Positions 3,191 through 61,500 of a DNA stretch of 64,000 bases are shown here, one piece after another. The notes beneath the pieces are model-generated. The model was not told the origin of the DNA. It was given only the letters and a program-made list of their open reading frames with translations, and searched no databases. Origin of the DNA: Arenicola marina (lineage: Eukaryota > Annelida > Polychaeta > Arenicolidae); the NCBI GenBank assembly GCA_964019135.1, contig OZ025265.1, positions 25,085,143 to 25,149,142 on the forward strand, read 5' to 3'. The translations under genes and the position numbers were made by a program. Every line of letters starts with the position of its first letter. The first letter of the stretch is position 1.

Positions 3191-3452
3191 AGAGGGGCCG
3201 GCGGGATAGCTCAGTGGGTTAGAGCGCTCGCATTGAGTTCTCTGGCCACCTGAGAGCCCAACGGCACGTGGATCGGTGGTTCGAGCCCTGTTGTGGCCAG
3301 GTCTGTGTGGTCGCAGGATAAATATCCCATGTCTTTCTTCGTAAAGAGTAGGGGGTTACCCCCGGGGACATGGCTCCACTCTCCTTTCCTTCTACCATTG
3401 ACGCGATATGACCAAAAGTGGTTCAAGCGCCCTGAATAACCAACCAACTGAC
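3191..3452 (+). mobile_element. tRNA-derived SINE, copy 1
   Basis: A full-length SINE of about 262 bp with a pol III A-box (GATAGCTCAGTGGGTTAGAG) and B-box (GGTTCGAGCCC). The body passes through a CCCCCGGGGACATGG segment and ATGACCAAAAGTGGTT, and the tail is CCAACCAAC. It is flanked by the 10-bp duplication CAGAAAGCGA (3181-3190 and 3453-3462). Other copies lie at 7.0, 16.5, 46.8 and 60.7 kb, with a scrap at 8.7 kb. Confidence 0.9.
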
Positions 3453-7014: not shown

Positions 7015-7270
7015 TTGTTGGATGGTTATTCAGGACGTTTTAACCACTTTTCGTCATATGGCGTCAATGGGAGAAGGAAGGGAGAGTGGAGCCATGTCCC
7101 CGGGGGTAACCCCCTATTCTTTGTGAAGAAAGGCATGGGATCTTTATCCTGCGACCACAGACATGGCCACAGCGGGGCGCGAACGACCGACCCACGTGCC
7201 GTTAGGCTCTCAGGTGGCCAGAGCACTCAATGCAAGCGCTCTAGCCCATTGGGCTGTCTCGCCGGCCCCG
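7015..7270 (-). mobile_element. tRNA-derived SINE, copy 2
   Basis: Full-length minus-strand copy of the SINE seen at 3.2 kb, flanked by the 12-bp target-site duplication GCGTCTAGCGGA (7003-7014 and 7271-7282). The B-box is altered by a few bases. The ORFs across it on both strands are frame readings of the SINE. Confidence 0.9.
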
Positions 7271-9597: not shown

Positions 9598-9797
9598 NNN
9601 NNNNNNNNNNNNNNNNNNNNNNNNNNNNNNNNNNNNNNNNNNNNNNNNNNNNNNNNNNNNNNNNNNNNNNNNNNNNNNNNNNNNNNNNNNNNNNNNNNNN
9701 NNNNNNNNNNNNNNNNNNNNNNNNNNNNNNNNNNNNNNNNNNNNNNNNNNNNNNNNNNNNNNNNNNNNNNNNNNNNNNNNNNNNNNNNNNNNNNNNN
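9598..9797. other. Assembly gap (200 N)
   Basis: Exactly 200 N, a placeholder-sized gap. The right flank (9798-10040) is strongly G-rich on the plus strand (GGGGAGGAGGAGGGGAGGGG and similar), a likely cause of the sequencing failure. Confidence 0.95.
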
Positions 9798-16464: not shown

Positions 16465-16625
16465 GGCGGGGTAGAGCAGGGAAGGGAAGAGCGGAGCCAT
16501 GTCCCCGGGGGAAGCCCCTACTCATTGCGAAGAAAGACATGGAATATTTATCCTACCACCACACAAACATGGCCACAGCGGGGCTCGAATCACCGATCCA
16601 CGTGCCGTTAGGCTCTCAGGTGGGT
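16465..16625 (-). mobile_element. tRNA-derived SINE, copy 3 (truncated)
   Basis: A minus-strand partial copy that includes the CATGTCCCCGGGGG segment, an altered B-box and CACGTGCCGTTAGGCTCTCA. The A-box end and the 3' tail are missing, and no target duplication is visible. Confidence 0.85.
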
Positions 16626-31789: not shown

Positions 31790-31989
31790 NNNNNNNNNNN
31801 NNNNNNNNNNNNNNNNNNNNNNNNNNNNNNNNNNNNNNNNNNNNNNNNNNNNNNNNNNNNNNNNNNNNNNNNNNNNNNNNNNNNNNNNNNNNNNNNNNNN
31901 NNNNNNNNNNNNNNNNNNNNNNNNNNNNNNNNNNNNNNNNNNNNNNNNNNNNNNNNNNNNNNNNNNNNNNNNNNNNNNNNNNNNNNNNN
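31790..31989. other. Assembly gap (200 N)
   Basis: Placeholder gap between the second duplicated unit and the left arm of the palindrome. Both flanks are assembly-hostile, so the true distance may differ greatly from 200 bp. Confidence 0.95.
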
Positions 31990-36399: not shown

Positions 36400-38060
36400 A
36401 TCGCTGAGTAACCGGAACAAGGACTTGGTATTATCTCGGATTATTTTACAGGTGTCGCCTCACATAGTTAACCTTCACTTACTGCTGAAGTCCTGAAATA
36501 ATATCTGAGACACATGCCTGTAGTTTACATAGATTCTGGCTTCATTGTCTATGTAATTTTTTCATCAAGGTGAAAACAATGCAACTCAATCTTAAAACAA
36601 ATGCAATTCGGCATCATGCAATTGAACATTATTGCCACAATAAAAAGCATTTAGCCACATCTTAAGCAACCAGTACATTACATGTTTGAATGGAAAGACT
36701 GTGCTAATATTCTGATAATGATTGATAAATTGACATGTACATTTTTTACAAAAAAGACTTACCCATTTTCTATTACCTCATTTGTGGAAACCATATGGAA
36801 GGTGTGTCCATAACCATGTGACACTTTCTTAGCCTGATGTTCACCTTCGCCAAGAACGACAAGACATAGGAACATGCAGAACAGCTCCTGTACTTCCTGC
36901 CACATGTTTCATCAGTTTTATACCTGACATACATCAGTTAAGCATTGCAATAATTCAATACACATGCCCTCCCCAGTTCTAGAGGACGTGGGGAAAATGG
37001 AACTTCCCTCATCAACTACAGGCTTGGGACTGACAACTACCTGTACCTTTATTGCATGTGGATGACTTGTTGGTAATTGCCAATAAGTGATCTCAGTCTA
37101 AGTTTCATTATTGAAACCTGCATATGAGTGCAAAAAGTACAGGCAGTTGGCGGGTTACATGTGTTGTTACATGTAAAAGCTTTTTAGTTAACAGCCCACT
37201 AGAATAGAATCAATAAAATTAGGGCATAGAGATGTGTTCCAGTTAAAAGGAAAGTGACATTTCCACAAATATGTTCAATAGTTATTGCAGACCTAAAATC
37301 TAACATTTATATGTATTACAGTACTTATCGATATGGTGTTGATGCTATATAGTGTGACTACAATCTTAAACAGCGAATATAACAGTGCAATAACATCATT
37401 TTCGACATTACCAATGACCATTATTACATTTGAGCATATATTAATGCAGGTGACTGGCTTAATGGATATGCCTATTGCAATCAAATACATATTCACTGTT
37501 TGAGCTGGATACAATTGGCATGCCAATTAAACATACATGCACTGAACCTGTGCGAATGAAGTGTCAGTGGGGTAAACAGGCCACCAAACTAATGCCCCCA
37601 GTAAATCAGTAGAGGGAAGGGTTAGGGGGAGGGATCAAGCCTGGGGTACCACACACACATTGTAGATACAATGTAGTCCACCCCCCCCCCCCCCCACCTA
37701 TAACCCCATCCCTCTACTAATTTACTGTGTCTGGGCCCATGGTCCATGCCATGGGGCCAGGCCGGTATAAAACATGCCTATAAATCTCTGGTTAGGGGTC
37801 GACATCCGTGTCAGCGCCTGTGCATTTTCCCATTGGTCTAAGCTGGGCAGTTTCGGTTTTCACGTTTGTTTACAGTGTTTATGGTAATTTTGAGTCATAT
37901 ATCACAGGTGGCACAACTTTTCATACATACAACGCACGTATCGGATTGAAACTTGTTTGGTCACACATCGTTACCACGCGAATGGTCTAGTAATAACGAG
38001 AAATCGGTGAATATAATCTTGTAAGTCGCACACTTGTAGCTTCTGGCGGCCATGCTTATC
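36400..38060. other. AT-rich spacer
   Basis: AT-rich unique sequence with a C-run at about 37680. No ORF or repeat family is recognised. Confidence 0.3.
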
Positions 38061-38069
38061 GTCGTGTGC

Positions 38070-39180
38070 GGGACTACTCTTGCAGCGCCACCCTGCGGGG
38101 AGCAAGGATTTTAATAGCGGCGTACCATACCCCACTTCCGGTTCAAAATTGTACGCGTCCTTGCTGTGCTCTACTTGGCGGTACTGGTGGACCACAACGT
38201 TGTGCAGCATGTCGACCAGTCCCACCAGGGATTGGGGTTTTCATTGGGTTTCTAATTTGAGAACATGATTAATGCTCTCGCAGTTTTTGTTTGTCCAAGA
38301 AGGGGAGATGCCGTGTCTTGATGATGTTGCGTAGTTTTCCTTCAGGATGGGAAGGATCCGTGTCTTGAAGTAGTGAGTGGCCTGTGGTGCGTGGGCGGCA
38401 AATCGTTGTTCTGCGTCAAGGGCACGCATGTCGAATACGGCCGCGGACTCAGCGTTGACAACGCCCTGGCGTCCAAACACAGACTGCGTTATATCCGTCC
38501 TCAGCTTGGTGCTGACGCCGACCTTGTCTTGCAAGTAGTCATTCAAGTTCCCCTTGAGGTGGCGGGTGCAGCTCATCCTGCGGCTGGACGGGAAGGCCTC
38601 AGCGATCGCATTCACCATGGCCTTTTCGTTATCGGACCCGAAGACAGGGTCTGCCGCGGTGCCGTGCAAAAGGACAGACAGGAGAGAGAAAAAGTCGAAG
38701 TAGGTAGAGAAGTCTGAATTTCCATGCAAGAACATGGGTCCGGCGAAGATCGGGTGGTCCCCGGTTGTTCGGCGTTTCACTCCAAGATGTTTGAACACGC
38801 CGACAGTGACGTGCACCTCCCCGAGGTTGAAGGTCTTGTCAAACCCAAGTATTGTTGACGTAGAACCGGGTCCCGAGCAGCAGAAACGTTTGATGTCCTG
38901 TATCTGGGCGTCGGTGTACAGCATTATCGATGGCACAAGGCTGTCACCTTTGTAATGCGTCTCAAAAAGTCGTCGCCTCCTCGAGCTCGAGTTAGCAATT
39001 GCTGTAGGTTGTCTGCGAAGTTAGCAGTACACCCTTCAACACCTCCTTCTTTCCGGCTCCGATATTGGGCACTTTCCAGCTGCTTCATTGACTTAGGAAG
39101 GGCATAAACATCCCCTCCCGCCGCCTTACACAGAGAGTCGAACGCCTTCCTGGGTTGTTTGTGTGTTACTTCCGCCTTAA
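38070..39180 (-). pseudogene. MULE-type transposase, decayed
   Basis: On the minus strand, 38936-38241 is a 231-codon open frame with MULE-type DDE features. These are the first Asp in LGFDKTFNLGEVHVTV, HPIFAGPMFLHGN, the second Asp in FGSDNEKAM, and the C-to-H signature MSCTRHLKGN. A later Glu in NCESINHVLK is a candidate third acidic residue. Upstream coding sequence continues to about 39175 (FDSLCKAAGGDVYALPKSMK), but a frameshift near 38960 separates it. Downstream a TGA replaces an expected Trp at about 38240, after which the frame goes on (KPQSLVGLVDMLHNVV, EHSKDAYNFEPEVGYG) to about 38090. One frameshift and one stop make it recently dead. It was probably intronless. Confidence 0.85.
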
Positions 39181-41039: not shown

Positions 41040-41980
41040 AATGCAGGACAGTCCCAGTGAAACGGAATGACACTGCACACAAATTGAAAAAGAACTGCTG
41101 GCGGTATAGTGTTTGGATTGTAAACATTTCATATATATGTATATATATGGAAGAAACATCAAAGTTTCATTCAGATCACAAGCCTTTGGAGGTAATCTTA
41201 AAGAAGACATTGTGTTCAGCACCAAAGATAATCTAACGGATGATGATGTGATTCCAATTATATAATATTGACTTTTCATACAAACCTGGCAAACAGATAT
41301 ACCTTTATACTATCATACAGAAGCTAAAGAGACAATTTGCACCCCATGGTATTCCAGACCAAGTTATTTCAGGTAATGGACTGTAATATGCCTCATCAAA
41401 ATTTCATAAGTTTGCACAAACCTGGGATTTTGAACATCTAACATCATCTCCAGGTTATCTCCAGAGTAATAGCAAGGCCGAACAAGCAATGAAAACTGCG
41501 AAAACCTCTTTCGAAAGGCTAAATATTCAACTTCAGACCCATATTTGCCAATTCTAGATCTCAGGAATATATCCATACAGGACATGGACTCAAGCCATGT
41601 ACAAAGACTTGTGAGTCGTAGAACTAAAACACTTCCACCCACTCATAAGTCTCTGTTACTGCCAAAGTTGTCAAAAATGTCCAGGATAAACAAAGGCTTA
41701 TCAAATACAGACAAGTACATTATAATCAACAAGCCAGGGATCTACCACCTTTGAGAGAAGGAGTTGTTGTGAGGATATAGCTATATGCAGGTGAAAGACA
41801 CTGATAACTTGTTGACAGACCATCATCATATATTACAACGTAACAGTCACTTACATCTGATGACAAAGTATTGGTGCTGACCAGTGATTTACCAAAACCA
41901 GAGTTGAGGAGCTGAAAAAGACTACGCCTAGCTATCTTACGGACTATGGTGAATGATCTGTTCTAGATCCCTGAAAATAC
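41040..41980 (+). mobile_element. Ty3/Gypsy LTR retrotransposon fossil
   Basis: An internal piece of a Ty3/Gypsy-type pol region in its normal order: an RNase H-like part (about 41050-41240, with the family's HSDHKPLEVILKK signature), an integrase core part (about 41330-41510), and weaker C-terminal integrase similarity to about 41975. No LTRs, gag, protease or reverse-transcriptase core are recognised nearby. It is a broken, old fragment with several breaks. Confidence 0.85.
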
Positions 41981-42841
41981 TGACTCTTCATCAAGTTTAG
42001 AATAACTTATTGAATGAAGTAGGTAATGAAAGGTGTATATGTATTAACTAAAGGTCGATTTGCTCTAAGAGTTTACTAAGAAGCATAAAATAGCTTTTGG
42101 AGTAAAGTATGATATGATAGGAGCAGGACAACCCTCCCCTCAGACAATTCCCCCCTGGTCAGTCCCCCCCCCCCCCCCCCACCAACAACCTCCCACCCCT
42201 TGAGATCCACAGGATCTGGAGGCCAAGGGCTTATTGCCAGCTTGTTGAGACAGCACTTCTCAGTGTATATGAAAATATAATATGAAACGTGCACATCTAC
42301 AATGTGACCTAATGGGTTACGGAACAGACAATGCCACGCTCCTTCACATGCTCAACATACTGTTGGTGGTCCAGAATTGGGACCGATGGGGATTGTCTGG
42401 AGGGAAGGGGGGGCGAGGCTTCTCTGTTTGGGGAGACATGGGTGGCCATGTCTGGGAAATTGTCTCAGGGGGTGGGGGAGGGACTTGTCCTAGTGGTGAA
42501 TTGTCTTAGGGGGGAAATACCCGGGGGGGAGTTGTCCCAGAATCATGATAGACATAGGATATGTATATTAACTAACTCTAAATAAAGTAATTTAAGTGAT
42601 AAAGAATATATTTACTTTAAGTTCGCTTTAAATGAAGAAGTAACATGCATCATGTAACATGCGCCGCCTGACGCAAGATGTAAAGCGTGCATTGTTAGCT
42701 GTTGTGATGCCGGAGAAAGCGGCAGAATAAGTGATTGAATATTAAAAGCATCTAAACGTCACTGCTGTGCAAAGAGCAGATCATCTAGAGTGGGGTTATT
42801 GAATTTTGGATTGCTGTTTAATATGCCCAGTGCATCCTAGG
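41981..42841. other. Spacer with G/C runs
   Basis: Contains a C-run at about 42167-42180 and repeated G-rich GGGGG(A/G)-type phrases at 42400-42530. No gene is supported. Confidence 0.3.
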
Positions 42842-43297
42842 TACAATCCCATCCTATATCATATCTAGACAACCATCAAGGTTGGGTTCCGACAGAATGA
42901 TGCAAGGCAACAATTTAGCCCTATCAATTCCACACCATCTATATTTATTGTATAAAACCATTGGTCTTGGATGGGTTGGTACAGAGCTTCCCTCTAGCAT
43001 GCATGCGTTGAAATGTTTGCTGCAAGTTGTATCACATCTGTCAAATGTCATGCACCTCATAACATCAAAGTATTCCATGGTTCCGTGTAACGTCGCTATG
43101 TTTCTATAAGTGGAGTATTTATAATTGCTTTCAAACACGATTAACGTTACAGTAGCTAGTTGGCGGACAAATAAAAAGATTGAGGGTTGGAGGTTTATGG
43201 TCAGTTTATTAATGATGCAACGTTATACAACTAGCTTGCACATTAAAGTGGCCAAATATGGCAAGATACTATAATTTGCCACATGTCCATATACGGG
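42842..43297 (+). repeat. Interspersed repeat family B, copy 1
   Basis: About 450 bp that recurs in inverted orientation at 52.35-52.7 kb. Shared landmarks are GCATGCATGCGTTG/GGCGCATGCGTAC, GCTATGTTTCTATAA, AGCTAGTTGGCGGACAAAT, GATTGAGGGTTG, AAAGTGGCCAAATATGGCAAG and TTTGCCACATGTCC. Non-coding and of unknown class, probably a DNA-transposon derivative. Confidence 0.75.
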
Positions 43298-43299
43298 AG

Positions 43300-43740
43300 G
43301 GGTGCTTTCATGCAGAGACGCTGAATGTCCCTTTTCATCAAATTGATCTCAACGAAAAGCAAGTAACCGTGAAGAATACAATCCGTGTACAGCATTACAG
43401 CCCACATAGCCATTTTGTGCATAGTGGGGGGAGGGCTGGGGGGGGGGGGGGGGGCAAGGGGTATTTCCGTTCCTCGGGAATGAGGTTTTCATTTCACTGT
43501 GAACTGGGAATGAGGCAAATAATTCTTTGTGAACTCTGAATAGAGTATTAACCACCCGTCGTGATCATGGATTTGCATTAATCGTGAACTGTGAATTTTG
43601 AACTGGGAATCCGCCCTTCCTATGCATACTCGAAGTTATTCTTTTTAATTTGTGGTGACATGGGAATAAAAACCTTTTTTCTGCTTCTTCGTGATCTGGG
43701 AACCCCCCCCCCCCTAGGTTTCAGTGAACCAGCCCCCCAC
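43300..43740 (+). repeat. Interspersed repeat family A, copy 1
   Basis: Shared with 54.37-54.84 kb and partly 58.16-58.40 kb. It begins GGTGCTTTCATGCAGA, has an internal G-run (about 43437-43454) followed by CAAGGGGTATTTCCGTTCCT, then variants of a short motif, CGTGA(A/T)CTGGGAAT, and ends in a C-run. Non-coding. Confidence 0.75.
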
Positions 43741-43744
43741 CAAA

Positions 43745-44580
43745 TTGTATAGCCATGGATATTTGTGTTAAAAAATGTAATGAGATTTTGGTTCATGCCA
43801 TATCTTTGTCAGATGCTTATTTTATGGGGAGACACAGTTATAGGAAAAGCTTCTCCACCCCCCCCCCCCCCCCCCCCCCACTCCACCTGTGCATAAAAAT
43901 GAAGTTCCGGATAGGCATGTTTAATTTTAAGGGGAGGACTATGATTTCTATATTGTTGTAAAATAGATGGTCAGGTTGCTTCTAGAAACTTAATGTCCAC
44001 GAAGAACAGCGATGTGCAACAGAGATTAGCAGCCTTTGTTTTTTATGCTGTCAAATGTCATGATATGTATCATAACAATATTACTACAGTTTGAATTATA
44101 AGACCGGCTTAAATTTGACATTGTTTACTGCAGTTTGAATTATAAGACCGGCTTAAATTTGACATTGTTTACTGCAGTTTGAATTATAAGACTGGCTTAA
44201 ATTTGACATTTTTGTGTACTATGGGCCTGAGGCCTTGAAGTGAAATAATAAATTTCTGTTCATTTGATATCGGGGGAGAAGGAGGGGGAGGGAAGGTCTG
44301 TAGGCTTTTGCTTTTTAAAACAATGTAAATTAAATACATTCAGGTGGTCGCAGTTACATTCAAATATTTGGCCCTTTGTGCAGATTAGATTGTAAGGTAC
44401 TTTGACACTCAAGAATTTAGCTTCTGCACATGCATGCGTCAGGTGCAAATATTGGGCAAGTTGTGTATATTTATAATTTTGAACGATTTGACCCGATTTT
44501 AAAGTTTATTGAAAGTCCTTGCACCATTTTTTGGTGTCAAAGGTCAGAATAAACACTATTGCATGCTTTAGAAGGCCTGA
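43745..44580. other. Upstream region of the RFX-like gene
   Basis: Contains a 22-C run (43858-43879) and the 44-bp tandem repeat described separately. Otherwise AT-rich. No gene is supported. Confidence 0.3.
44081..44210. repeat. 44-bp tandem repeat, three copies
   Basis: Three copies start at 44081, 44125 and 44169 (TTACTGCAGTTTGAATTATA, then AGACCGGCTTAAATTTGACA). They lie about 400 bp upstream of the putative promoter of the RFX-like gene. Confidence 0.9.
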
Positions 44581-44601
44581 CAAAAATGGTATATATATAT
44601 A

Positions 44602-44660
44602 TATAAAAAGAGCCAATGTTTGTTCAGGCTTCTCTCACATGTTGCATATTCTGTTGCAGA
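44602..44660 (+). promoter_or_regulatory. Putative TATA promoter of the RFX-like gene
   Basis: A (TA)n run ends in TATAAAAAG at 44602-44610, followed by TTCAGGCT and TCTCTCACAT, either of which could be an initiator 25-35 bp downstream. The first in-frame ATG is at 44731. An alternative reading is that CTGTTGCAG at 44651-44659 is a splice acceptor for an upstream exon. Confidence 0.4.
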
Positions 44661-44730
44661 TATAGATCAAAGTGTACTGTTCCAAGTGGATGTGTGCTGT
44701 ACAGCTTCAGCGGAGAGCTCAGGCTTAAAA

Positions 44731-47700
44731 ATGACTTCAAATACAGACTTGGTGTCATGGTAAGTAAAATATAATTATTTAATTTTCTCATAAGACTTAG
44801 ATCTTTATAGATTGGCTATTTCTGATATATAGATGTGTCAACCATCCAGCCCTTACCTATTTCGATCGATCAAGCAAAGCCCTTTGACAGGTTTTAAATA
44901 TTGCAGTGACAATTTTCGGTATGGATTAACTACAGGTACTTTCACATGTACTTGTGAACATTGTGGACCTCGGTTATACATCAACAACTCTGTGACGTGT
45001 TACACAAGAGGACCGCTTTTGTGGTGAGCAGAACTGATATCAGATTAACTCTGCCCCCCAGCCACCCGTTTTTTGTTGTTGACATTTTGAGATGATAATC
45101 AATTGGGAGGGTCCTACTTTATCCATGAAGCTTAGCAGTGGAAAACTAGGAAATCTACATATGTCAGATAATTGAGACTTTTATTGAAATTATTGCGAAT
45201 AACAAGTATAGTTCTCATGACACATACAATATGTTTCATTTTACACTAGCAATACAATTGACAATGAGCATTTGCTTTACATGACGGGTTCAAAACACAT
45301 TGCTAGCACAGTGATTTTGCAGGGTGCGCACAGGCTTGAAAAATGCTTGAATTTTGACTGATGCTTGGAAAAGGTCATAAAAACAGAAATGTGCCTTGAG
45401 GTCGATCCAATGTACTTGAATTTGCTTGAAAATAGGGCAGTTACGATGAAAAGTGGACTGGGCACTGTCAAAGACCCAAGAAAAAATCGAACAAAAGCTG
45501 GCTGAATTGAAGAAGTAGCAACTAATAAAAGTAAAGTGATTAGCTCCAATAAATGCTGTTGGCTCGTAATAAATAAACGTGCACACTTATTTCCCCATAT
45601 CAAAATTGTATGCATTAAATTTAGTCCCAAGTTTTGCAATTTGTATGCTTAAAATAAGACCAGAGAAGGTACAAATTGTCCTTGAAACGTCCTTGAATTT
45701 TTCTAGTACTTGCCTTAAAAAGGCTTGAATTTGATGGAACCTTACCTGTATGAACCCTGCGTTTGCTTTACTTTGTGCATTGCGACTTACACAATCCATG
45801 ACCAGTAGATGGCAGCACACGGCTGGTCGACGGCTCCCTCATTTACCACCTTATCCACATGCCACAGTTTCTTCCTGAATCACCTGTTAGCCCTCAAGGC
45901 TTGCAACAAAACCGCGGCAACACCTGCCATGAAAGTGCTGTGGCTATCCACGACCACCCTATTCAGCGTTTGTCCCTGCGCCTTGTGAACGTCATTGCAA
46001 ATCCGACGCGCAGAGGAACTTCACTCCGGTTAGCGACTATATCACCGTCGCCTCCGTGTTCGGAGAAATTGCGTTTCTGCAAACTTTGAAGTTGGCTGTC
46101 AAGAAAGAAATCCGATCTTCAAAGTCAACACCTTTGGCGTGTGGGTCTCACGTGGTCTCCTAAGCTTACGTGCCCGTGGAAAGGACCAAAATGACATTAT
46201 TAAAACCACAAGAGATACATACAATTATCTCTCCGACAGACCACTCGGACGGCGCTTATGGCGTATTGTTGTTCACAGAAATTATTATTTTTCATTCAGA
46301 AGATTTGTAAATATAAAATTTGCGGACATGCACATTTAACACAATTTTTTTCATTTATAGATTGCAAGTCCCTACACATTTCTCGTGTTCCAGACAGAGT
46401 TATCGCTCTACTGACAATACTCACCTGAATCGCCACGCCTGTACGACTTCCGTTCCTCGTCTAGGGCTTCCAACTCGTCGTAATTGTTCATATCGACTTC
46501 AAAGTTCGTGGCGTATAGATCTGTAGATATACGGGCCCTCGCCTTTAAGCAAGGGCCGCGTCAGATACCGCATGAGGGCATGGGCCTCTTCTGATGGAGC
46601 ACCCTCGCACAGCTCGGCGATAGCTCGGATTAGCACCCGATCGTTCTGTCGCCTAACCACTGCCGCAGTCGAGCGATGGCAACACTGGAGGGATTCAGAT
46701 TGATCTTGCTAACATCGAGGAAAGTCGTCGTATTGCTGCCCTCGAGGAACTCTCATGCCATCCAGTCCACATCCGCCTAGTGGGGCCGCCTCGATAGCTC
46801 AGTGTGTTAGAGCGCTCGCCTTCAGTGCTCTGGTCACCTGAGAGCCTAACTGCACGTGGATCGGTGGTCCGAGCCCCGCTCTGGCCATGGCTGTGTGGTC
46901 GGAGGATAAATATCCCATGTCTCTCTTCGCACAGAGTAGGGAGTTACCCCCGGGGATATGGCACCACTCTCCCTTCTTCTCCCATTGACGCGATATGACC
47001 AAAAGTGGTTAAAGCGTCCTGGATATACAAGCAACCTCCTTTATTCTATCCAAGAGTCTATGGTTTCGTTGCCATCTTCCTTGCCGGGCCAGTGGCGTAG
47101 CGGGGTTTCTCCCTGACGCTTGAATTCCCAACTAGACATCTCCGTGTTCAAAGTAACCGAAATCTCCTAGCGAAGGCGTCGGAGTTCATTGATGATTTGC
47201 CGGCAAATGACATAGTGAATTTATTTGTAATCTTCTTTTTTTTCTAGGATCGCTGGCCATCTCGAAGGTGCCAGCTACGGCACAACCGTCGTGGCCGCAG
47301 AGGTATACCAAGCCTATGCGAAACATTGCAGTGAATCCCCTGGTACACTTTATAGCGCAACGACAGATGCCATGGGCAAAGTCCTGCGGGATTTTTTCCC
47401 GCATGTGGTGCATACTCATAGACGGTACGATGGCCTGTACTGGAAGAAAACCGACCCCGAGCAGTCCCTTCAACTCCCCGAATACTGTACGCTGACCAGT
47501 ACAGCGAGTGGGATGTCTATCAGCGTGGCAACAAACCATGTAGTCGATGGACACAATTTGACGATAGACATCCAAATCAGACCAGATCTCAGTGTGGAAA
47601 TGTACATCGGCGAGAATAAAATCTCACTGGCGAACTATGGAATCTCCGAACAGTTACCGGATAAGAGCCAGCCCTCCGTAGACGGCGTCGTGATCCCAGC

Positions 47701-49593
47701 ATACAAGGCCAATTTGTGCCGGGGCGTGCCGCGCCAACCCGAGCACGAGGAAGCCAAGTCGGCCGTGCGGGAAAGGTGGTCGGCGCTGGGGTTCGAGAGC
47801 TATGGAGAAGACAGAACTCGGACTAAGACATGTCTCCGGTTTATACCATTCAACTCGAAAGCCGGCATAAGTACATGCACCAGTTGTAGGAAGTTTTATC
47901 GCTATCACTCCAAGAAGAGGAAGCTGGCAGCCCTCGACTCCGAATCAGAAACGGACGACACGGAAGCCACACTGGGCGAGGATGGCAGCAGAGACCTGGC
48001 GTCCATTCTTGAGAACGTGTTGCCATCGGCCCCTAGCAATTTTGAGATGTTGCTCCAGTCACAGTTGGACAATTGCGGCAAGCACCCGAAACAGCGAAGG
48101 TGGCCTCCCAAGCTGATCAGCATTTGTATGGCTCTGTGTAATCGGTAAGTCTCACGGGGTTTAAACATATTTATTTAACGATGATACCCCGAATAGCTAA
48201 TTGCGCTAGAAACATGGGGCTTCCTAAAAAAAAGTGAAAAGCAAAATGTTACAGTGTAAAACAAAATATGCAATACTACAAAGGCGAGGCAAATTTGATC
48301 CCATATAACAGGGACGTGGAAAGAGACAGGACGATGGATAGACTTAAAGGCTTACTCCAGCTAGATTATTGGTATCTGAAACGATGAGTAGATAATACAA
48401 ATGTAGATACAGCGTCAATAAGAGTTTTCAGTTGGACGCTCGTGGCCACAGAAGAATAAATGTACAATATCTTTTCGATTGAAGTCTTGTTATCCTACTG
48501 AGAGTGCCGAAAAAAATATGCTCTCTCGCGGTCATAATTCGAACAGTAGAGAAAAAATATACATAAGCTTCACTAACAGCACCACATGAATATTAAGGGC
48601 TTTCGTTGCAGAGTTTATTGTGCGGATTTTTTTAAATTGCTAAAACCCAGTCGCATTTGCGCTGTCACTTGCAATTTTCTGGAAACCATATAGAAGCAGC
48701 TTATCTTGACGCATCGTATAAAGAGAGCAATATAGTGACCGAAATTGACAACTACGTAGTGCACGCGATAAAGAGTTCCGCATTCGTGTACCTGCGGGGA
48801 AGAAACTAAATATGTAGCTATTGGTTGTACAATGGATGGTGCGGAATTGATGGCATCGTTGCCTCTCGTCGTTCTTTTTGATCCCGACCTGGGTGGTAGT
48901 CTAGATATGATATAGGATGGGGTTGCGCCTAGGACGCACTTGGCATATTTAACAGCAATCTGAATTGTCGGCGGTCTGTGAGTGAGGGCAAACCGCTGAT
49001 TGAATAACCCCACTCTAGATGATCGGCTCTCTAAGTTTCACTTTCTATACCCTGCATGACCAATCCAAACAGTTAATATTTGTGGGGAGCTCTGTTCGAT
49101 TCATAGGAAATATATCACAGATGAGCGGCCCTGTCACATACAAGGACATAAACTATTAAAAGATGGAACCCCCTACATAACACGTCCCAGCAGATCACAG
49201 CCTCCTCCAAACACTGTCAAATGAAACCTGTCGGAGATTTGCTGAAATGGTCCCAAAGTGACATTAATTTTTTAATTCATTAATGTAAGTGACCTTAATT
49301 CCAGGATCGCCAAGTGAAATGCTCCATGGCAATTTGAAACCGAGTTGATCCGTGGACCCCTCCCTTTTCAAATTTCTGGATCCGCCACTTTAATTATGAT
49401 GAATAAATCATGGACTATGTACGTAATGCTGTAATGGTGTGCATGCACGTGTTATTCCAGATCCGTGCCGGCATATGAAATACTGCGGAACAGTGACCTG
49501 CTGGTGCTGCCTTCAGTGCGGCTCCTGAGACTCTACAAGAAGTCTTTGTCAGAGGCCGCAGAAGTATCCGAGGACAGCCTGGATGATCAATAA
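44731..49593 (+). CDS. RFX-like winged-helix / P-element-transposase-like fusion
   Basis: Three exons join in frame: 44731-44759 (donor GTAAGT), 47248-48144 (acceptor TTTTTTTCTAG, donor GTAAGT) and 49461-49593 (acceptor TTATTCCAG). Together they give 352 codons and TAA. Residues about 10-77 fit the RFX winged helix, with W10 (split by intron 1) and then AAEVYQAYAKHC, MGKVLRDFFPHV and YDGLYWKK, matching the RFX pattern W..., LYxHYxxHC, FGKLIRxxF, YxYGLxxK. Residues 220-235 hold a CxxC and basic run (CTSCRKFYRYHSKKRK), followed by an acidic stretch. Residues about 285-335 (HPKQRRWPPKLISICMALC, SVPAYEILR, LLVLPSVRLLRLYKK) resemble the N-terminal segment of P-element/THAP9 transposases. No DDE nuclease or THAP finger follows, so it cannot transpose. 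It is likely a nuclear DNA-binding protein. The assignments are by eye, and the start could lie upstream. Confidence 0.6.
45320..45759. mobile_element. hAT-like MITE in intron 1
   Basis: A 440-bp element with terminal inverted repeats CAGGGTGCGCACAGG and (right end, reverse complement) CAGGGTTCATACAGG, the style of many animal hAT elements. Repeated CTTGAATTT/CTTGAAA motifs lie just inside both ends. No clear 8-bp duplication survives. The minus-strand 120-codon ORF across it has no known homology and is probably chance. Confidence 0.75.
45850..46700 (-). pseudogene. Decayed PIF1-like helicase
   Basis: Minus-strand pieces of a PIF1-family DNA helicase in correct order. At about 46665-46540 is RRQNDRVLIRAIAELCEGAP SEEA (domain 1B end, with the RQND motif). 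At about 46525-46425 is LYATNFEVDMNNYDELEALD ending in RRGDSG at a donor-like GTGAGT. At about 46078-45855 are PLRVGFAMT, then VHKAQGQTLNRVVVD (motif V/VI region) and AGVAAV. Frames change at least twice (near 46535 and within FAMT/VHK) and the ATPase N-terminal half is missing. Such helicases are encoded by Helitron transposons and by amplified host genes. No Rep domain is seen, so the source is open. It sits antisense inside intron 1 of the RFX-like gene. Confidence 0.75.
46785..47040 (+). mobile_element. tRNA-derived SINE, copy 4
   Basis: Full-length plus-strand copy with A-box CGATAGCTCAGTGTGTTAGA and a slightly altered B-box (GGTCCGAGCCC). The tail is degraded (CAAGCAACC) and no target duplication is visible, so it is older than copies 1, 2 and 5. 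It lies in intron 1 of the RFX-like gene. Confidence 0.88.
48145..49460. other. Intron 2 of the RFX-like gene
   Basis: A 1316-bp intron (GTAAGT...TTATTCCAG). It contains a short scrap of the GGATCCGCC MITE terminus at about 49370-49392. Nothing else is recognised. Confidence 0.5.
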
Positions 49594-50083
49594 AGCCTCC
49601 CCATTGGGCACACCCGCCACTTTTGAAATCCGCGCCATATATGGTCATCGTGCAAGGACACTGATTTCAGTAACGCTGATTTCTTTAAATAATTAATTAT
49701 TAATAATAATAATAAGTAATAAGAACTTACAACTGTTCTTTTTAGATTTTCTTTCTTTTTGGGGCATAATTTTGTTTAAATGTTTTTTTTCTTTCTATTC
49801 ATCCGCAGTATGTATGCAAATAAGCACTACATTCTGAACTTTTCAGGCGTTCATGCTGATTGTGTTTTGTTCGGGCCCCACCTTCGATCAAAGTTACACA
49901 AACTGGATCCCCCCTTACTCTGTGCGATGCATCGCTCAGTCAGAATGTTTGATCTTCAGACCCCATAACATACTTGGAGGTTTCCCTTTCCATTTACGTA
50001 ATTATATGCGTCTTGTACAATAAGTATTAAGTAATCAACAGCACCGTGTATCGGAAAGACCAAATATAATATCGGTGACAGAC

Positions 50084-50089
50084 AATAAA
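50084..50089 (+). terminator. Polyadenylation signal AATAAA
   Basis: AATAAA followed within 10 bp by GTGTTGTGTT, a GT-rich downstream element, 490 bp after the stop codon of the RFX-like gene. A second AATAAA (49589-49594) overlaps the stop codon itself. Confidence 0.5.
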
Positions 50090-50706
50090 GGTGTTGTGTT
50101 ATCACGTATCTGCAACTGTTCCATACTTCTCTCTCCTCACAACATAGGTGTCACTTCTCGTAGTCTACCTGCCACAGTAACGTTAATGATTACTTCGTTT
50201 GGCTTCGATATGAGTTGTTATCCTTCGCTGTAAAAGGGGGTATCGTGGGGCTGTTATTGTCCTTCGATCAGGCTCAGTGAATGAGGGGGCGGGAGATAAT
50301 ACCCCCTCTGGATCGCGAATCCCCAAGAATTAGGGAGAGCAATATCGAATCTCCCAAGGTTAGGATATTATAAAGCTGGGCGCGAATTAATGGTGATATC
50401 GCAAATATCGAGAAAATCACAGACTGTTACAACGGTTCGCGGTAAATAGGCATCCGGTCTTAGCGTTGAACCAGGAATTGTACGGATAACGACCCCTCAA
50501 AATTGCCAACAGCTGATCGCGAATCTCCAAGAATTGATGAATGTCAATCGGAAAACGTATCCCCCCCCCCACCCTGAATAATGATTTGACGGCAAAGTTA
50601 AGGCGAACCTTCTTGCTTCATGTTTTTAAATTGAGAAAGAATGTGAATGACGTACTGTTTGAAATGGCTAAAAAAACATTGCAAATCAGAAGACCCTCCC
50701 TGCATT

Positions 50707-50922
50707 TATTAGCAATAATACTTTAATAGGATAACAATAATACTTTAATAGGATAACAATAATACTTTTATAGTATAACAATGATACTTTAACAGTATAG
50801 CAATAATACTTAATAGTATAACAATAATACCGGTACTGCAATAGTATAACAATAATACCGGTACTTTAATAGTATAACAATAATACCGGTACTTTTATAG
50901 TATAGCAATAATACTTTAATTA
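50707..50922. repeat. 22-bp AT-rich minisatellite
   Basis: About nine to ten copies of AATAATACTTTAATAGTATAAC. Three copies carry the inserted phrase ACCGGTA. Confidence 0.9.
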
Positions 50923-52325
50923 AGTCACTCATTCCCAGCGTGCCCATGCTGACAACTACGACCCTTTTATTGCACGTGTATTTGATCCAATTGGAGCACT
51001 ACAATAGACCGATCTAAGCGGTCAGCTATCCGGTGACGTCACGTGCATATTCAGCCAATCAGGTGGCGAGTAGCCAGGGGCACGAAAGCCAAACAGAAAA
51101 TTCGGTCATACCAAACGCGGCGACGTGACGCAGTTACCCGCTCCTAGAGAACTTCTTTCTGCACATTTTGAGCCAAACCGGGACTTTTTGCGTAGATATT
51201 GAAGCTAAGGACAATAACAGTATGATTGATAATTGTTATCAATGCATTATGTAACAAAATGCTACTGTATGTTGACCTGGAGGTGCAAGACGCGCAGCTT
51301 TCCTAACCAAGCCTTCACATCGTCTGCCAAACGATAATAGCATGATAACGTTAAGTTAACGTTAGATTGTGGTTTGCATAGTTGATATATGATTGCTTGT
51401 TAACTGACCATGTTCCCGCTGCGGTAACTTAACGCTTGCAAGAAACGGTAGAATGATGAAGAAATAACTACTTTACTACGTTAAATTAACGTTTATTTTT
51501 CGCTTACAAATAAACGTTTGCAAGTTAAACTGAAAAACGTGATCGAAATGTTTAAAACCTCGAAAAATAAAAGGCAAATAAATTAAGATTCATTTTAATA
51601 ATAGTTTTTCGAACAAAAGTTTGGGGGTTATAAGTAACATAAAATTAAACTATCGCACGGCCATATCAAACCAAGCATTCTCGCCGTCTGCCAATCCCTT
51701 TGGTAAACATATATTTTCTAAGGTTGTTACAGATCAAACTTAATTCTCGGGGGGCTAAATCTGTCGGTGCGGGTGGGGGGGGGGGGGGCTTCTGCGGCTT
51801 GACCAGGGGTTGGGGGGGGGGCGGGTCTATAGCCGCTGGATCCACCACTGGGCGGTGGGGGTGGTTGGCGGGTGAGGGATGGGTTACGCGTTACAAGTAA
51901 TTTTATGCGGTTTTAAACGCACCGCGTATGTCATTGTCTTCTTTCTGTACGCGACACTTTGAATGTCTGGGTGGATTATGTCACTATAAGCCTGTACGTT
52001 TCTTGGTCCAGACTGTTGTCACTATGTTTCCGTGCCCAGTGCAAGGTTTCCGGTCATTGTTGTAGCGTTCCTTCCATGCCAGTAAGTTTCCCGCCCCCCT
52101 GGCGCGTGACTCCTGCTACGTTAGGAGCGCCACCTGTTTATGAGATCATCCGGTCGCGCATGCGCGATAGGCGCCTGAAGCGCCACCTATATAACCAAGT
52201 GTTCGTCTGGATCTCACCCTCTCCTGGATCTCTGGCGGCCTGAACGGACTGAACTCCAAGCATCCACCCACCACCCCATCCGCACCCTTTGTTTTGGTTT
52301 TGGGTTTTGGCCCGCTTGGCCCCTA
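50923..52325. other. Spacer with promoter-like and TIR-like motifs
   Basis: At 51003-51065 is CAATAGACCGATC, matching the terminus of the 15.6-kb MITE family, then TGACGTCACGTG (51034-51045) and CAGCCAATCAG. It may be a diverged MITE end carrying a CRE and CCAAT box. Elsewhere there are AACGTTA-rich sequence (51340-51540) and G-runs (51775-51830). No gene is supported. Confidence 0.35.
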
Positions 52326-55580: not shown

Positions 55581-58500
55581 CGAAAGTCCTATGCAATGCC
55601 GTCACCCGAGCATCTATCCCGTGAAGGCGAAGACTTACCCATCTACACGGACGTTGAGGACAAACCAGATAATCCGGTAGACGCCAATACGCCAAGTCAG
55701 GATAGCCCATCAAATCGGACTAACGCCAACGCCAGCCACGATGACGTCACAAAGAAGGGTGATCCGTCAAGCGGCCGAGAGAGTCCTGCCGTCCCTCTGA
55801 GGACTCCAAATAAAAACCCCAGAAGCAATCTGGACAGCAACACCTCTCATGTCTATGAGTCGCTAATGACGGTGCCTGGATCTCGTGTACGGGATCCTGA
55901 ATCCACATGCATGATCCAGTGTTCACGAGAGAGGCGGATTGCGGTCGGGATAGCCATGTCAGCCCTCGTCTTAGGCTTTCTCCTGGGCTTCCTGCCGATG
56001 TATTTCGCTAGGACAGCAGGTGAGGTCCCCGGGATGAGGTTCTTTCAAGCTCCATTCGCTAGGTGGAGCTTCGTTCCTCACCTCAGCTGGGGGGCTGGGG
56101 GGCGACCCGGCCTCGGCTCCTCCTTTTAGGGCCGAATTTAGACCATTTACCATATGAAAACCGAAACCGCCTCTCCCCCTATCCAGCATATCTGGATCCG
56201 ACCCTGAAACCGGCCCCTTTTTTCCCGATTTTCTGGATCCGCCCCTGGCGAGTGTGCGATGGATGTAGCCGACAACGGAGACATAGAGGGCCCCAGAGGG
56301 GCTTTTTCGACACGGCGACACGGCGATTTTTAAAATCGACAACGTGACATTGGGGTTGTCTTAGAATCGACATGCGACATGGACCTTTTCTTAAAATCGA
56401 CACGCGACATGGCTACCCCTCTCAGGGGCCCTACATATGGGTCTGGCAGGGGTAAACGGCGACATGCGACAACCCTTTCTGAAAAGTCGACACGTGCCCG
56501 ATATTGGCNNNNNNNNNNNNNNNNNNNNNNNNNNNNNNNNNNNNNNNNNNNNNNNNNNNNNNNNNNNNNNNNNNNNNNNNNNNNNNNNNNNNNNNNNNNN
56601 NNNNNNNNNNNNNNNNNNNNNNNNNNNNNNNNNNNNNNNNNNNNNNNNNNNNNNNNNNNNNNNNNNNNNNNNNNNNNNNNNNNNNNNNNNNNNNNNNNNN
56701 NNNNNNNNGGGTCAGACCAACACTCCGACAACACTCGTTAGATGGCGCGAATAATGTCCGCTATGGCCATTTTGAAATTCAAGATTATGTAACCTGAGTA
56801 TATCTGGATGTGTAAAAATTAGACATTAATAAATTCCTAATGGGACTGCTATTTTTGTTCTAGGTCATAGAGAAATGATTGCCACCCCATGATATTGAGA
56901 CGAACTGTTTTTACAAATACTGCTATAGAATCTCAGTATTGGCCAATGATACTGTGATATGCTTGTTTACTATGTTTTGCTTACTAAAGCTTGTTCATTA
57001 CTTTAATTCAGAGCAGATATTAATAACAAATATATACAGTGCAGACAACCAATTTCTTTGTCTGGTATTTAGTACCGTACTCTATGCGGGATATTACCAT
57101 ATATCTCGGTAATTCGCACGGTTTTGTGGGGGATCACAGGATATTGTGTTTTATCGAGAGAGAGAGAGAGAGAGACAGAGAGGGAGAGGGAGGGAGAGAG
57201 AGAGGGAGGGAGAGAGAGAGGGAGGGAGGGAGAGAGAGAGAGGCGGGGGAGGAGGGAGGGAGGGAGGGAGGGAGGGAGGGAGAGAGAGAGAGAGAGTAGG
57301 TGTATATGGACGGGCCTAGGTGGAGCAAGCTTCCATTCGCTAGGTGGGGCTCCATTTCTCCGATAATTATAGTAATTGAAAAGTGAACGTATCGAGCCTT
57401 GCAGGAACAGGAGCGATAACTCATAGGTTTGGATGCACTTTTAACTAGTTGTTGGCGGTTATATGCTCGTAAAATATATATATATAAATATATAAATATG
57501 TGGCACCAAGGCATTCATTCAGTTATGCCGTGGAGTCCACTTGTGCACAAGACAGGGCTAAAGAATCATTTCATTTCATTTCAATCATTCACTGATGCGA
57601 AGTCAACCTTGTTTAAAAGGCACTTAAATTCATTCGATGTCCCGGGTTTTTTAAGTCGCTAAATTGTGTGGCTACCATTGCTTACAAATAAATACAGTGA
57701 ATTCAATGGCGTGTCATATCTCTATTGATTTCCTACTGATCTTATGTCTAAGCCTATGTGAAAACAACGTGTGCAGGGGCGGGTGCAGCGCCCCCCCCCC
57801 CTTTATGGCCGAAAATTAGATCATTTAACATATGACAACCGAAACCGAACCCGAGCCCCCCCCCCCCCCTAGGCCATATCTGATCCTACCCTGAAACCGA
57901 CCCCCCCCCTAAAGAAGCCCCCCCCCCTCTATCCAGATTTTCTGGATCCGCCCCTGGTGCGGTGGTGTAGTACGAGTTGGCAGCTCGTGTGTTTTGCCAA
58001 TGACATTCACGTTTAACCAATTGACTGTGTGAGCAAGTGTACCGTGTAGTGTAGTGGAAGGATATGTTGATATTCTGTAACCCGATCGATGAGCGGCAGT
58101 CCCGTCCTCGGTTGACTGAAGTAATATGAAATGGGGCTTGGGATGAACACGATCGATCGACGTGCAAAGTTCGTGAACTGGGAATGGGGTATTAGCCGAT
58201 CGCCGTGATCAAGGATTTTCATTAATCGTGAACTGGGAATTTTAATAATAAACAACCGTGAATCGGGAAATCGTCAATTCAGTATCGTTTATCCGCCCTT
58301 TCATTGCATGCGGAGAGTTTTGCTTTTAATTCATCGTGACATGGGAATAAAGACATTTATTCTTCGTGATCTGGAAACACGACCCCCCCCCCCCCTTGCC
58401 CCTCCCTCTCCCCCTCCCCCTAGGGAGGTGATCGGGTTATAGAATACTGTCGGAACTGGAAAAAAATGTGGTCGGGCAGGGAGGCTGTACTGTAATTGAA

Positions 58501-61500
58501 CCATGTCACCAAATACAAGGATCGTCCCATGGCTCATTGATGTCACTTATTTTCCACACGTTGTAGCTGTTCAAATTTTAAGCTCCACCGACTTAGCCCC
58601 CCCCCGTCCCCAACCTAACGCCATGGCGCACGTGCCACGCCGTCCGACATATGAGGGACAGATCCAGATCCCTTCGTGACCTGCATCTTGGCGGGAGGCA
58701 AGGAAGTCCAGCGGTATACGGGGCACATAGGGTTTCATGGAGTGGGTGACCGGATCTGCGCAAATGAAGTAACTTCCTTGAAATCCGAAGGATATATATG
58801 ACACTGAGCGTGCGTGTGTGTGGGGGGGGGGGGGGTGGAGGGGGGGGGGGCTAGGGGTGGGGTTGGGGTATATATTTCCACTGAAGCCGTGGTGCAGAAA
58901 TTGTGCCTCTGGACATGTATTGCCCGAGCGGACAAACACGCCGGGAAGGCAGAACAAATGAAACTCTTGAGATTAACAAATTTAACTTACCGCAATGCTA
59001 TTTTATATATAATGATATGATGATATGATGTATTTCATATGCTTATTGAAAGTTTCTATTCATTATATTTATTATTAACTATGGTATATGTGTTGATCGA
59101 ACTGACAGTTCCGCAGGACCGAAACCGTCAAACCAGCTTTCTCGGTGATGCACGGTTTCGCGCAAACCGGTTTCGGTTCTTCTCTTGTCGAACATCAGTT
59201 CGGGCAAACTGATGCTTGCTTTGGAGGCTTCATCTTGCAGTTACAGTTGCGGTTACATGCAGATATGTGTATGTCATTCTCACTAAAAAATAACATGGAT
59301 GTGCCAAACGATCTTGGAATCACAATATTGCTCCACATTTTGTAAACGAAAACCATTAACTTTGCATAAACGAGAATAAAATCTACTAGGAAGCGGTGTT
59401 TGATGTAGGCATGATCAATTGGCAATAACAATTAAAGTTGCATATTGCGCTCTTTCCCGCCAAAAACTAAGACAAGACGACATATAAGTCTTATATCACA
59501 ATTTGCAGAAAACTCGATTGTACCAGTCTATAAATTCAGAAAGCAATGCTACTACTTATAACAAAGCATCGCGAAGCACAAAAACTGATGACGTTTACCA
59601 CTAAGTCTAAGTTGAAAACCTAAAAATTAAAAATTAAGAGACGGCAAGACAAACATGTTCGTCAGAATAAGAGACTCCATTTGGCAGTCTGGCATGCGCG
59701 GAATATAGACAAAAGAAATCTTGGATGATTCAAGGACTGTCTCTTATTTGTATTTTGATCTCTTTTGTTTTGGCGGGAAAGAACTCGATATACAAATTTA
59801 ACCTGTATTTTTATCATGTTCTACACGGACAAAACACCTACGACTAGCTATTCGCAGCGGAAAATTAACCATCGGGATATGGGTCGCTACCAACGGATCA
59901 AAAACCGTGGTCTCTATTTTCACCGCCAGATGGCATACATGCTCTGGAAACCGTCTACTGACTGTGCCGGGAAGTGTAATAGAATAATGTCACCAATACA
60001 TGACACGAATAGAGTTATAGCATAATGGGGCTATGCTGTTACTGTAACTTACGGATGCAACTAAATATAGATCCAAACTTGCGAAGTCTGTTCTACCTAA
60101 CAGAATACCCCAAGCGGCTACTTAAGACCGTCCTGTCATACCGCTGAAAACTCCAGACCCGCCAAGAGCCCTCTGGACAGCAAGAAGTCTGACGTCTACG
60201 AGTCCCCAAGTACTGTACCTGGACACGATGGTCGGTATGGCCATGTCCGCGCTCCTCGCCTCGGCATTTTTGGTTATGGGCTTCCTGCCGACGTCTTCTG
60301 CGTGGCTAACAGGTAAGTAAGCGTCGCGTTGTTATTCGAATTGAGTTGCGTTTCAAGTATTGAATCGCGTTTGCACTTAGCACCAATGGCCAGGCAGCAT
60401 GTCAGGAAACGTTAAGCCATAGAGCTATCTCGATTATTCATTCCGCTTTGCAATATAGAAGCATAATCTTGTGATGTGCCGAGTTGTGGCGACTGCGCAG
60501 ATACTATGGCTTGGTGTCGGGTTATGGTTAAAACTCGTCTCTCAAGCATTATTACTACTCTATTGTTTCTTCATATGAATCGAGTTCGATATTGTAGCCA
60601 GCAAACACACAAGATAAATCAGGTGCAGATAGACCTTTCCAGTATTTACTTGTAAAAACCATGCATCATTTCTTGTAAAAATAACTTTGCCTTTTATTGC
60701 CAATCTGATTCAAAACCTGTGGGGGCCGGCCCGATAGCTCAGTGGGCTGGAGCGCACGCATTGAGTGCTCTGGTCACCTGAGAGCCTAACGGCACGTGGA
60801 TCGATGGTTCGAGCCCTGCTGTGGCCATGTCTGTGTGGTCGCGGGATAAAGATCCCATGTCCTTCTTCGCAAAGAGTAGGGGGTTAACCCCGGGGACATG
60901 GCTTCACTCTCCCTTCCTTATCCCATTGACGCGATATGACCAAAAGTGGTTAAAGCATCCTGAATTTACAACCAACCAACCAACCAGTCAAAACCTGCGA
61001 TTAATGCCTGTTAAAGCAGCGGATATTGCGGCATACACATGGCAAGCACCAGCTCTCCTAATTCGACCCACAAGAGCTACCTTGACCTCACGCTAAAGAA
61101 TAGAGAAAGGGCTACCTCACAGAAAACAATGGCAGATAAATACTGAAACAGCAGGAGCTTCGCATACGGAATGGTGGGTCCCAGGCCCGGGGGGGGGGGG
61201 GGGCACTACATGTAGTTGGCTATACACATAAGTGCCGCCCAAATGACCCCTTTTTTCGCTTGTTTTCTCTCTTTCCTCGGAACAAAAACGGGCTTTTTCT
61301 CTCAATGCTCCTATCTGAGACTCAAAATTTCTCTCAATCCCCAAAGAAAAGAAATGGTCCATATGAAATGGCTAGCATAACAAACATACGACTGACCAGA
61401 AATGCTTACAATGTTTGTAAAACCTTATCCATACGTACACTAATGTGTATGCCGTAATAATAAACCTCTATATACGTTGCATATTTTTGAGCGCCTTATT

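Follow-up and report, generated by a model that had tools for sequence, protein, structure and literature searches.

A three-exon gene of Arenicola marina joining an RFX-like winged helix to a possible P-element-like segment

Three plus-strand exons in the window (the whole 64-kb stretch of Arenicola marina DNA that was analysed) can be joined and translated in frame to an open reading frame of 352 codons. The coding part of exon 1 (44731..44759), as read from the spliced translation, encodes MTSNTDLVS followed by the first two bases of a Trp codon and ends at a GTAAGT donor at 44760. Intron 1 (44760..47247; phase 2; GTAAGT...TTTTTTTTCTAG) lies within the RFX-like domain and contains transposon-like relics. 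Exon 2 (47248..48144), which is identified by its 305-codon frame, its period-3 signal and its match to PF02257, carries most of the RFX-like domain, a middle region and the start of a P-element-like helix-turn-helix (HTH). Intron 2 (48145..49460; phase 2; GTAAGT...TTATTCCAG) splits this P-like HTH, and exon 3 (49461..49593), likewise read from the spliced translation, is coding to 49590, supplies the second part of the HTH together with a 17-residue tail, and ends with the stop codon TAA at 49591-49593. Both introns are of the GT-AG type, with acceptors TTTTTTTTCTAG and GTTATTCCAG. An earlier note, made from the sequence, had proposed this three-exon model and called the gene intact-looking; splicing, translation and the GT-AG boundaries confirm the model, and the description as intact is borne out for the reading frame.

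The same GTAAGT hexamer serves as donor of both introns and occurs nine times on the plus strand of the window. Three of these sites (44760, 48145 and 49285) fall between 43 and 51 kb, and two of the three are the donors of the gene. Intron 1 splits the Trp codon as TG|G, and splicing restores it exactly, as had been claimed. Since TG precedes 14 of the 190 GT sites in 43800-47200, the split is weak evidence by itself. The reading frame is also open 5' of the ATG, as far as 44581, so an additional 5' exon is possible. In the middle region of the protein, encoded by exon 2, Cys167, Cys205, Cys220 and Cys223 might form a putative metal site.

Exon 2 lies inside a 305-codon stop-to-stop frame, and a frame of at least 305 codons appeared in 1 of 300 simulated 9-kb sequences of matching composition (longest, 329). 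When period-3 scores were compared, 4 of 300 windows reached the 28.2 of exon 2; windows containing N, those in two tandem-repeat stretches and those over exon 2 itself had been excluded beforehand. These four windows overlap one another, with starts at 37801-38251, and lie over a relic of a MULE transposase. The relic itself (38241-39020, minus strand) matched PF10551 at 6.4e-5 with 23.8 bits, below the cut-off of 27.6, and at 0.0018 in another scan; it is the sole stretch among the compared windows to exceed exon 2 in period-3 score. From the long open frame together with the periodicity, we conclude that the exon 2 region codes for protein, or did so until recently.

The earlier note had also described the unit as framed by a TATA box upstream and by AATAAA with a GT-rich element downstream. 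These elements are indeed present, but they do not discriminate, because TATA[AT]A[AT] and AATAAA each occur 52 times on the plus strand of the whole window. The TATA box is the terminal part of a TA dinucleotide run. The distal AATAAA (50084..50089, plus strand), one of the 52, is immediately adjoined by the GT-rich stretch; ten AATAAA fall between 44 and 51 kb, one of them, at 49589, overlapping the stop codon. Being too common in the window, the TATA box and AATAAA were rejected as evidence for the gene.

The N-terminus of the protein resembles the RFX DNA-binding domain, and a Pfam match as well as a PDB match support its assignment as a divergent winged helix of the RFX type. Residues 1-87 matched PF02257 at 5.4e-6 with 27.4 bits, and their best match among 177635 PDB sequences was RFX5 (8zjr_M; E=4.4e-4). 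With the whole 352-residue protein the same Pfam model aligned to residues 8-64 at 8.6e-5 and 23.5 bits; the curated cut-off being 27 bits, the domain alone (27.4-27.6) is above it and the whole protein below. PF02257 was the sole Pfam family found for the whole protein up to E=10. The profile search proposed in the earlier note supported the RFX part, whereas no P-element profile matched. RFX5 was absent when the whole protein was compared with the 177635 PDB sequences; the sole match there, to an S-layer protein (E=0.64), was taken as chance.

Most of the RFX-like region is encoded by exon 2 (47249..47458, plus strand); residues 8-10 lie in exon 1, and a diverged wing extends to about residue 80. 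Restoring the split codon improves the RFX match as well: PF02257 gave 22.5 bits with exon 2 in its unspliced frame, 23.1 with exon 2 alone and 27.6 with the spliced sequence, and changing the restored Trp to Phe lowered the spliced score to 24.1, a cost of 3.5 bits. With exon 1 included, the alignment begins at model position 5 rather than 18. The likeness to RFX proteins (PF02257; RFX5, 8zjr) covers the region of helices 1-3, where the conserved Trp of helix 1 is present and GKVLRDFFP aligns with GKIIREIFP of RFX5. Unlike in RFX proteins, the alignment ends at model position 58 of 79, before the wing. The wing motif of RFX proteins reads RLGxRGxSKYHY; it is not kept in the protein, which has THRRYDGLYWKKT at that place, and X-box binding is therefore not to be assumed. 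A single-sequence structure model of 88 residues, made from the unspliced exon 2 frame, showed the element order H-H-H-E-E but had a mean pLDDT of 53.8, and of the 12 Foldseek matches up to E=10 none reached E <= 0.001. The structure model of 305 residues had a pLDDT of 32.9, and both models are of low confidence.

The C-terminus had been likened to the first part of P-element and THAP9 transposases, and on this point, where support is weaker than for the RFX part, the comparisons divide. The P-like HTH, as placed by a hand-written P-like transposase segment and by a fixed alignment to the Drosophila HTH, runs from residue 294 in exon 2 (48098..48144, plus strand) to residue 335 in exon 3 (49461..49539, plus strand). 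None of the Pfam P-element models, PF12017 included, matched the protein. The Drosophila transposase TNP itself scored 18.4 bits on PF12017, below the cut-off of 23, and this model is thus insensitive here. Local alignment to Drosophila P transposase gave chance scores, reached by 598/2000 and 1007/2000 shuffles for the C-terminal 93 residues and by 1624/2000 and 1912/2000 for the whole protein. In a fixed alignment, on the other hand, residues 301-334 compared end to end with the Drosophila HTH scored 8, where shuffles averaged -23.7, and 17 of 20000 shuffles reached this score. The stretch, which was picked after looking at the data, ranked top among the 34-residue windows of the protein (319 in all), and its score was reached by 26 of 13692 background ORF windows.

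A closer likeness was seen with the hand-written P-like segment, which was set down after the window protein had been read, so that bias is possible. Residues 294-335 align with residues 1-47 of this segment; 40% of the 47 columns are identical, BLAST run on just the two sequences gave E=1.7e-8, and none of 3000 shuffles reached the match. From its residue 53 onward the segment matches PF21787 (TNP-like RNase H) at 2.1e-29, and its own HTH is weakly similar to the Drosophila HTH, with 48/1000 shuffles reaching the score under BLOSUM62 and 290/1000 under BLOSUM45. Against the segment, the exon 2 part scored 41, the exon 3 part 55 and the joined sequence 86; the higher joined score supports intron 2. 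What the C-terminus would share with the P superfamily (Drosophila TNP 6p5a; THAP9; PF12017, PF21787) is the pattern RW-P-LI-C-L-S-AY-LR-LPS-LL-Y, located just before the position of the RNase H domain. We regard the match to the hand-written segment as a strong lead, not proof, for a P-like C-terminus.

Several other matches were taken as chance: two PDB matches of the C-terminal 93 residues, at E=1.1 and 3.2, and the Pfam matches DUF4674 (0.071) and DUF2950 (0.051), both below cut-off. No relative was found for the window protein among phages and viral contigs, for the hand-written segment among viral contigs, genome contigs and plasmids, or for an alignment of the hand-written and Drosophila segments among viral and genome contigs, these collections being of viruses, plasmids and prokaryotes and thus having little bearing on animals.

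The protein had further been said to stop before any nuclease domain, and at the sensitivity of Pfam this is upheld. In scans run with X at stops, no RNase H domain (PF21787) was detected in the six frames of 44.0-53.8 kb (E up to 1) or on the plus strand to 63.7 kb (E up to 0.1). The N-terminus gave no THAP zinc finger with Pfam up to E=10. The protein is unlike known members of the P superfamily in its RFX-like N-terminus in place of THAP and in that neither a nuclease domain nor a match to PF12017 was found. P-element and THAP9 elements carry terminal inverted repeats flanked by an 8-bp target duplication. Flanking inverted repeats, which according to the earlier note would speak for an active element rather than a host gene, were sought in 43000-51500, and none was recognised as element ends among 25 listed of the 27 pairs of at least 16 nt, a floor that shorter ends would escape. 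No second copy of the gene was seen in the window, where tblastn of the protein recovered the three exons of the gene itself and no other match below E=3.5.

The introns contain relics and repeats. Intron 1 contains a PIF1-helicase-like relic (45883-46020, minus strand), which matched PIF1 in the PDB (7otj; E=0.0066) and, below cut-off, UvrD_C_2 in Pfam (0.044); it is broken, and a nearby stretch in another frame is presumably the preceding helicase motif. A further piece at 46411-46560, without a Pfam match, looks PIF1-like to us. The intron also holds one copy (46782-47036) of a dispersed repeat that is 85-88% identical to four more copies in the window (60722-60977, 3191-3448, 7027-7269 and 16481-16622). 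This repeat looks SINE-like; ARAGORN reported no tRNA anywhere in the window. Intron 2 contains a repeat (48832-49030) whose inverted counterpart at 42773-42942 consists of two pieces, of 81% and 94%. Elsewhere, a weak match to the integrase core (rve; E=0.03, below cut-off) lies on the plus strand at about 41312-41455, and an open frame at 62483-62950 (plus strand), with no Pfam match, resembles, as we take it, the start of a C-type lectin. Three runs of exactly 200 N each (9598-9797, 31790-31989 and 56509-56708) are probably assembly gaps.

These insertions bear on the age of the gene. Since intron 1 interrupts the RFX domain, exons 1 and 2 were joined before anything was inserted between them; the split gene thus probably predates the intron 1 insertions, and its frame has remained open since. 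That the exons stayed open while the insertions decayed points towards selection without proving it, because the PIF1-like relic may have arrived already broken.

Taken together, the features describe a three-exon gene in which an RFX-type winged helix would be followed by a Cys-bearing middle region and a P-type HTH, with the end of the protein falling before the RNase H domain. The winged helix would occupy the position of THAP in known P-element proteins. We give a probability of about 0.5 to the reading that the gene codes for the front, DNA-binding half of a P-like transposase in which RFX replaces THAP, perhaps kept as a repressor. Whereas the open spliced frame, the likeness to RFX and the lack of any detected nuclease domain nearby are observed, a P-like origin for the C-terminus, the function and domestication are inferred. 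Binding without cutting would be expected of a protein that combines a P-type HTH with a winged helix of the RFX type but lacks a nuclease, and this protein most likely binds DNA, ancestrally the ends of transposons.

Truncated products of the Drosophila P element offer an analogy for how such a protein might act. Passages of PMC7776569 describe how the P-element HTH contacts the terminal repeats and how truncated products, of 66 kDa and the 207-residue KP, bind P-element DNA or repress transposition; the 66-kDa form, in the same passages, lacks the C-terminal third only. Like these repressors, the window protein would be a truncated transposase product that keeps DNA-binding parts, and by analogy it may repress related transposons in a dominant-negative manner. 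It differs from them in that RFX takes the place of THAP and that DNA binding is a prediction, the 66-kDa and KP forms being, as that source describes them, products of the P element itself. Alternatively, it could serve as a DNA-binding regulator derived from a transposon. Beyond the single locus, we propose tentatively, and with less confidence than the reading above, that a clade of P-like transposases in this animal lineage bears RFX instead of THAP and that the locus is a host gene derived from its DNA-binding half, acting as a repressor or a transcription factor.

Among the other explanations, the most serious is that the locus is a truncated P-like transposon copy that still has an undecayed frame, has no host function and has full-length relatives elsewhere in the genome. 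The transposon relics and repeats around and within the gene fit such a remnant, as does the end of the protein just ahead of the catalytic-domain position. However, the intron 1 insertions have decayed while the exons remain open, terminal inverted repeats were not recognised in 43.0-51.5 kb, and tblastn found no second copy within the window. We consider an undecayed remnant possible, though at odds clearly short of even. A much less probable explanation is that the model is incomplete: exon 3 would be an alternative terminus, with the RNase H domain located in exons beyond the window or hidden from the scans through being split by introns. Introns and alternative splicing are reported for the Drosophila P element in passages of PMC7776569, and the open frame 5' of the ATG leaves room for missing exons, but Pfam detected no RNase H on the plus strand to 63.7 kb, about 14 kb past the stop. 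It is just as improbable that this is a host RFX-like gene without any link to transposons, its P-like C-terminus being a convergence of a short helical motif: the RFX part alone reaches the database threshold, and direct local alignment to Drosophila P transposase scores no better than chance, yet the hand-written segment (40% over 47 columns, 0/3000 shuffles), the fixed-HTH test (17/20000), the diverged RFX wing and the lack of a further Pfam family for the protein all argue against it.

Among the titles and opening lines of abstracts screened in open-access PubMed Central, none describes a fusion of RFX with a P-type transposase, and the main text of PMC10027918 contains neither "RFX" nor "winged" (0 occurrences each). 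Should the locus be no more than a remnant with an open frame, it would simply be a further transposon relic. As the THAP proteins illustrate, P-element transposases and animal DNA-binding proteins have modules in common. If an RFX-type domain has indeed replaced THAP in a P-like lineage, this would be an independent swap of the DNA-binding domain within the P superfamily and would add a new architecture to those that contain RFX. The module by which the superfamily reads DNA would then be exchangeable, and RFX domains would also travel on transposons. The gene would also offer a testable case of a truncated transposase, dead for cutting, that has been retained as a repressor.
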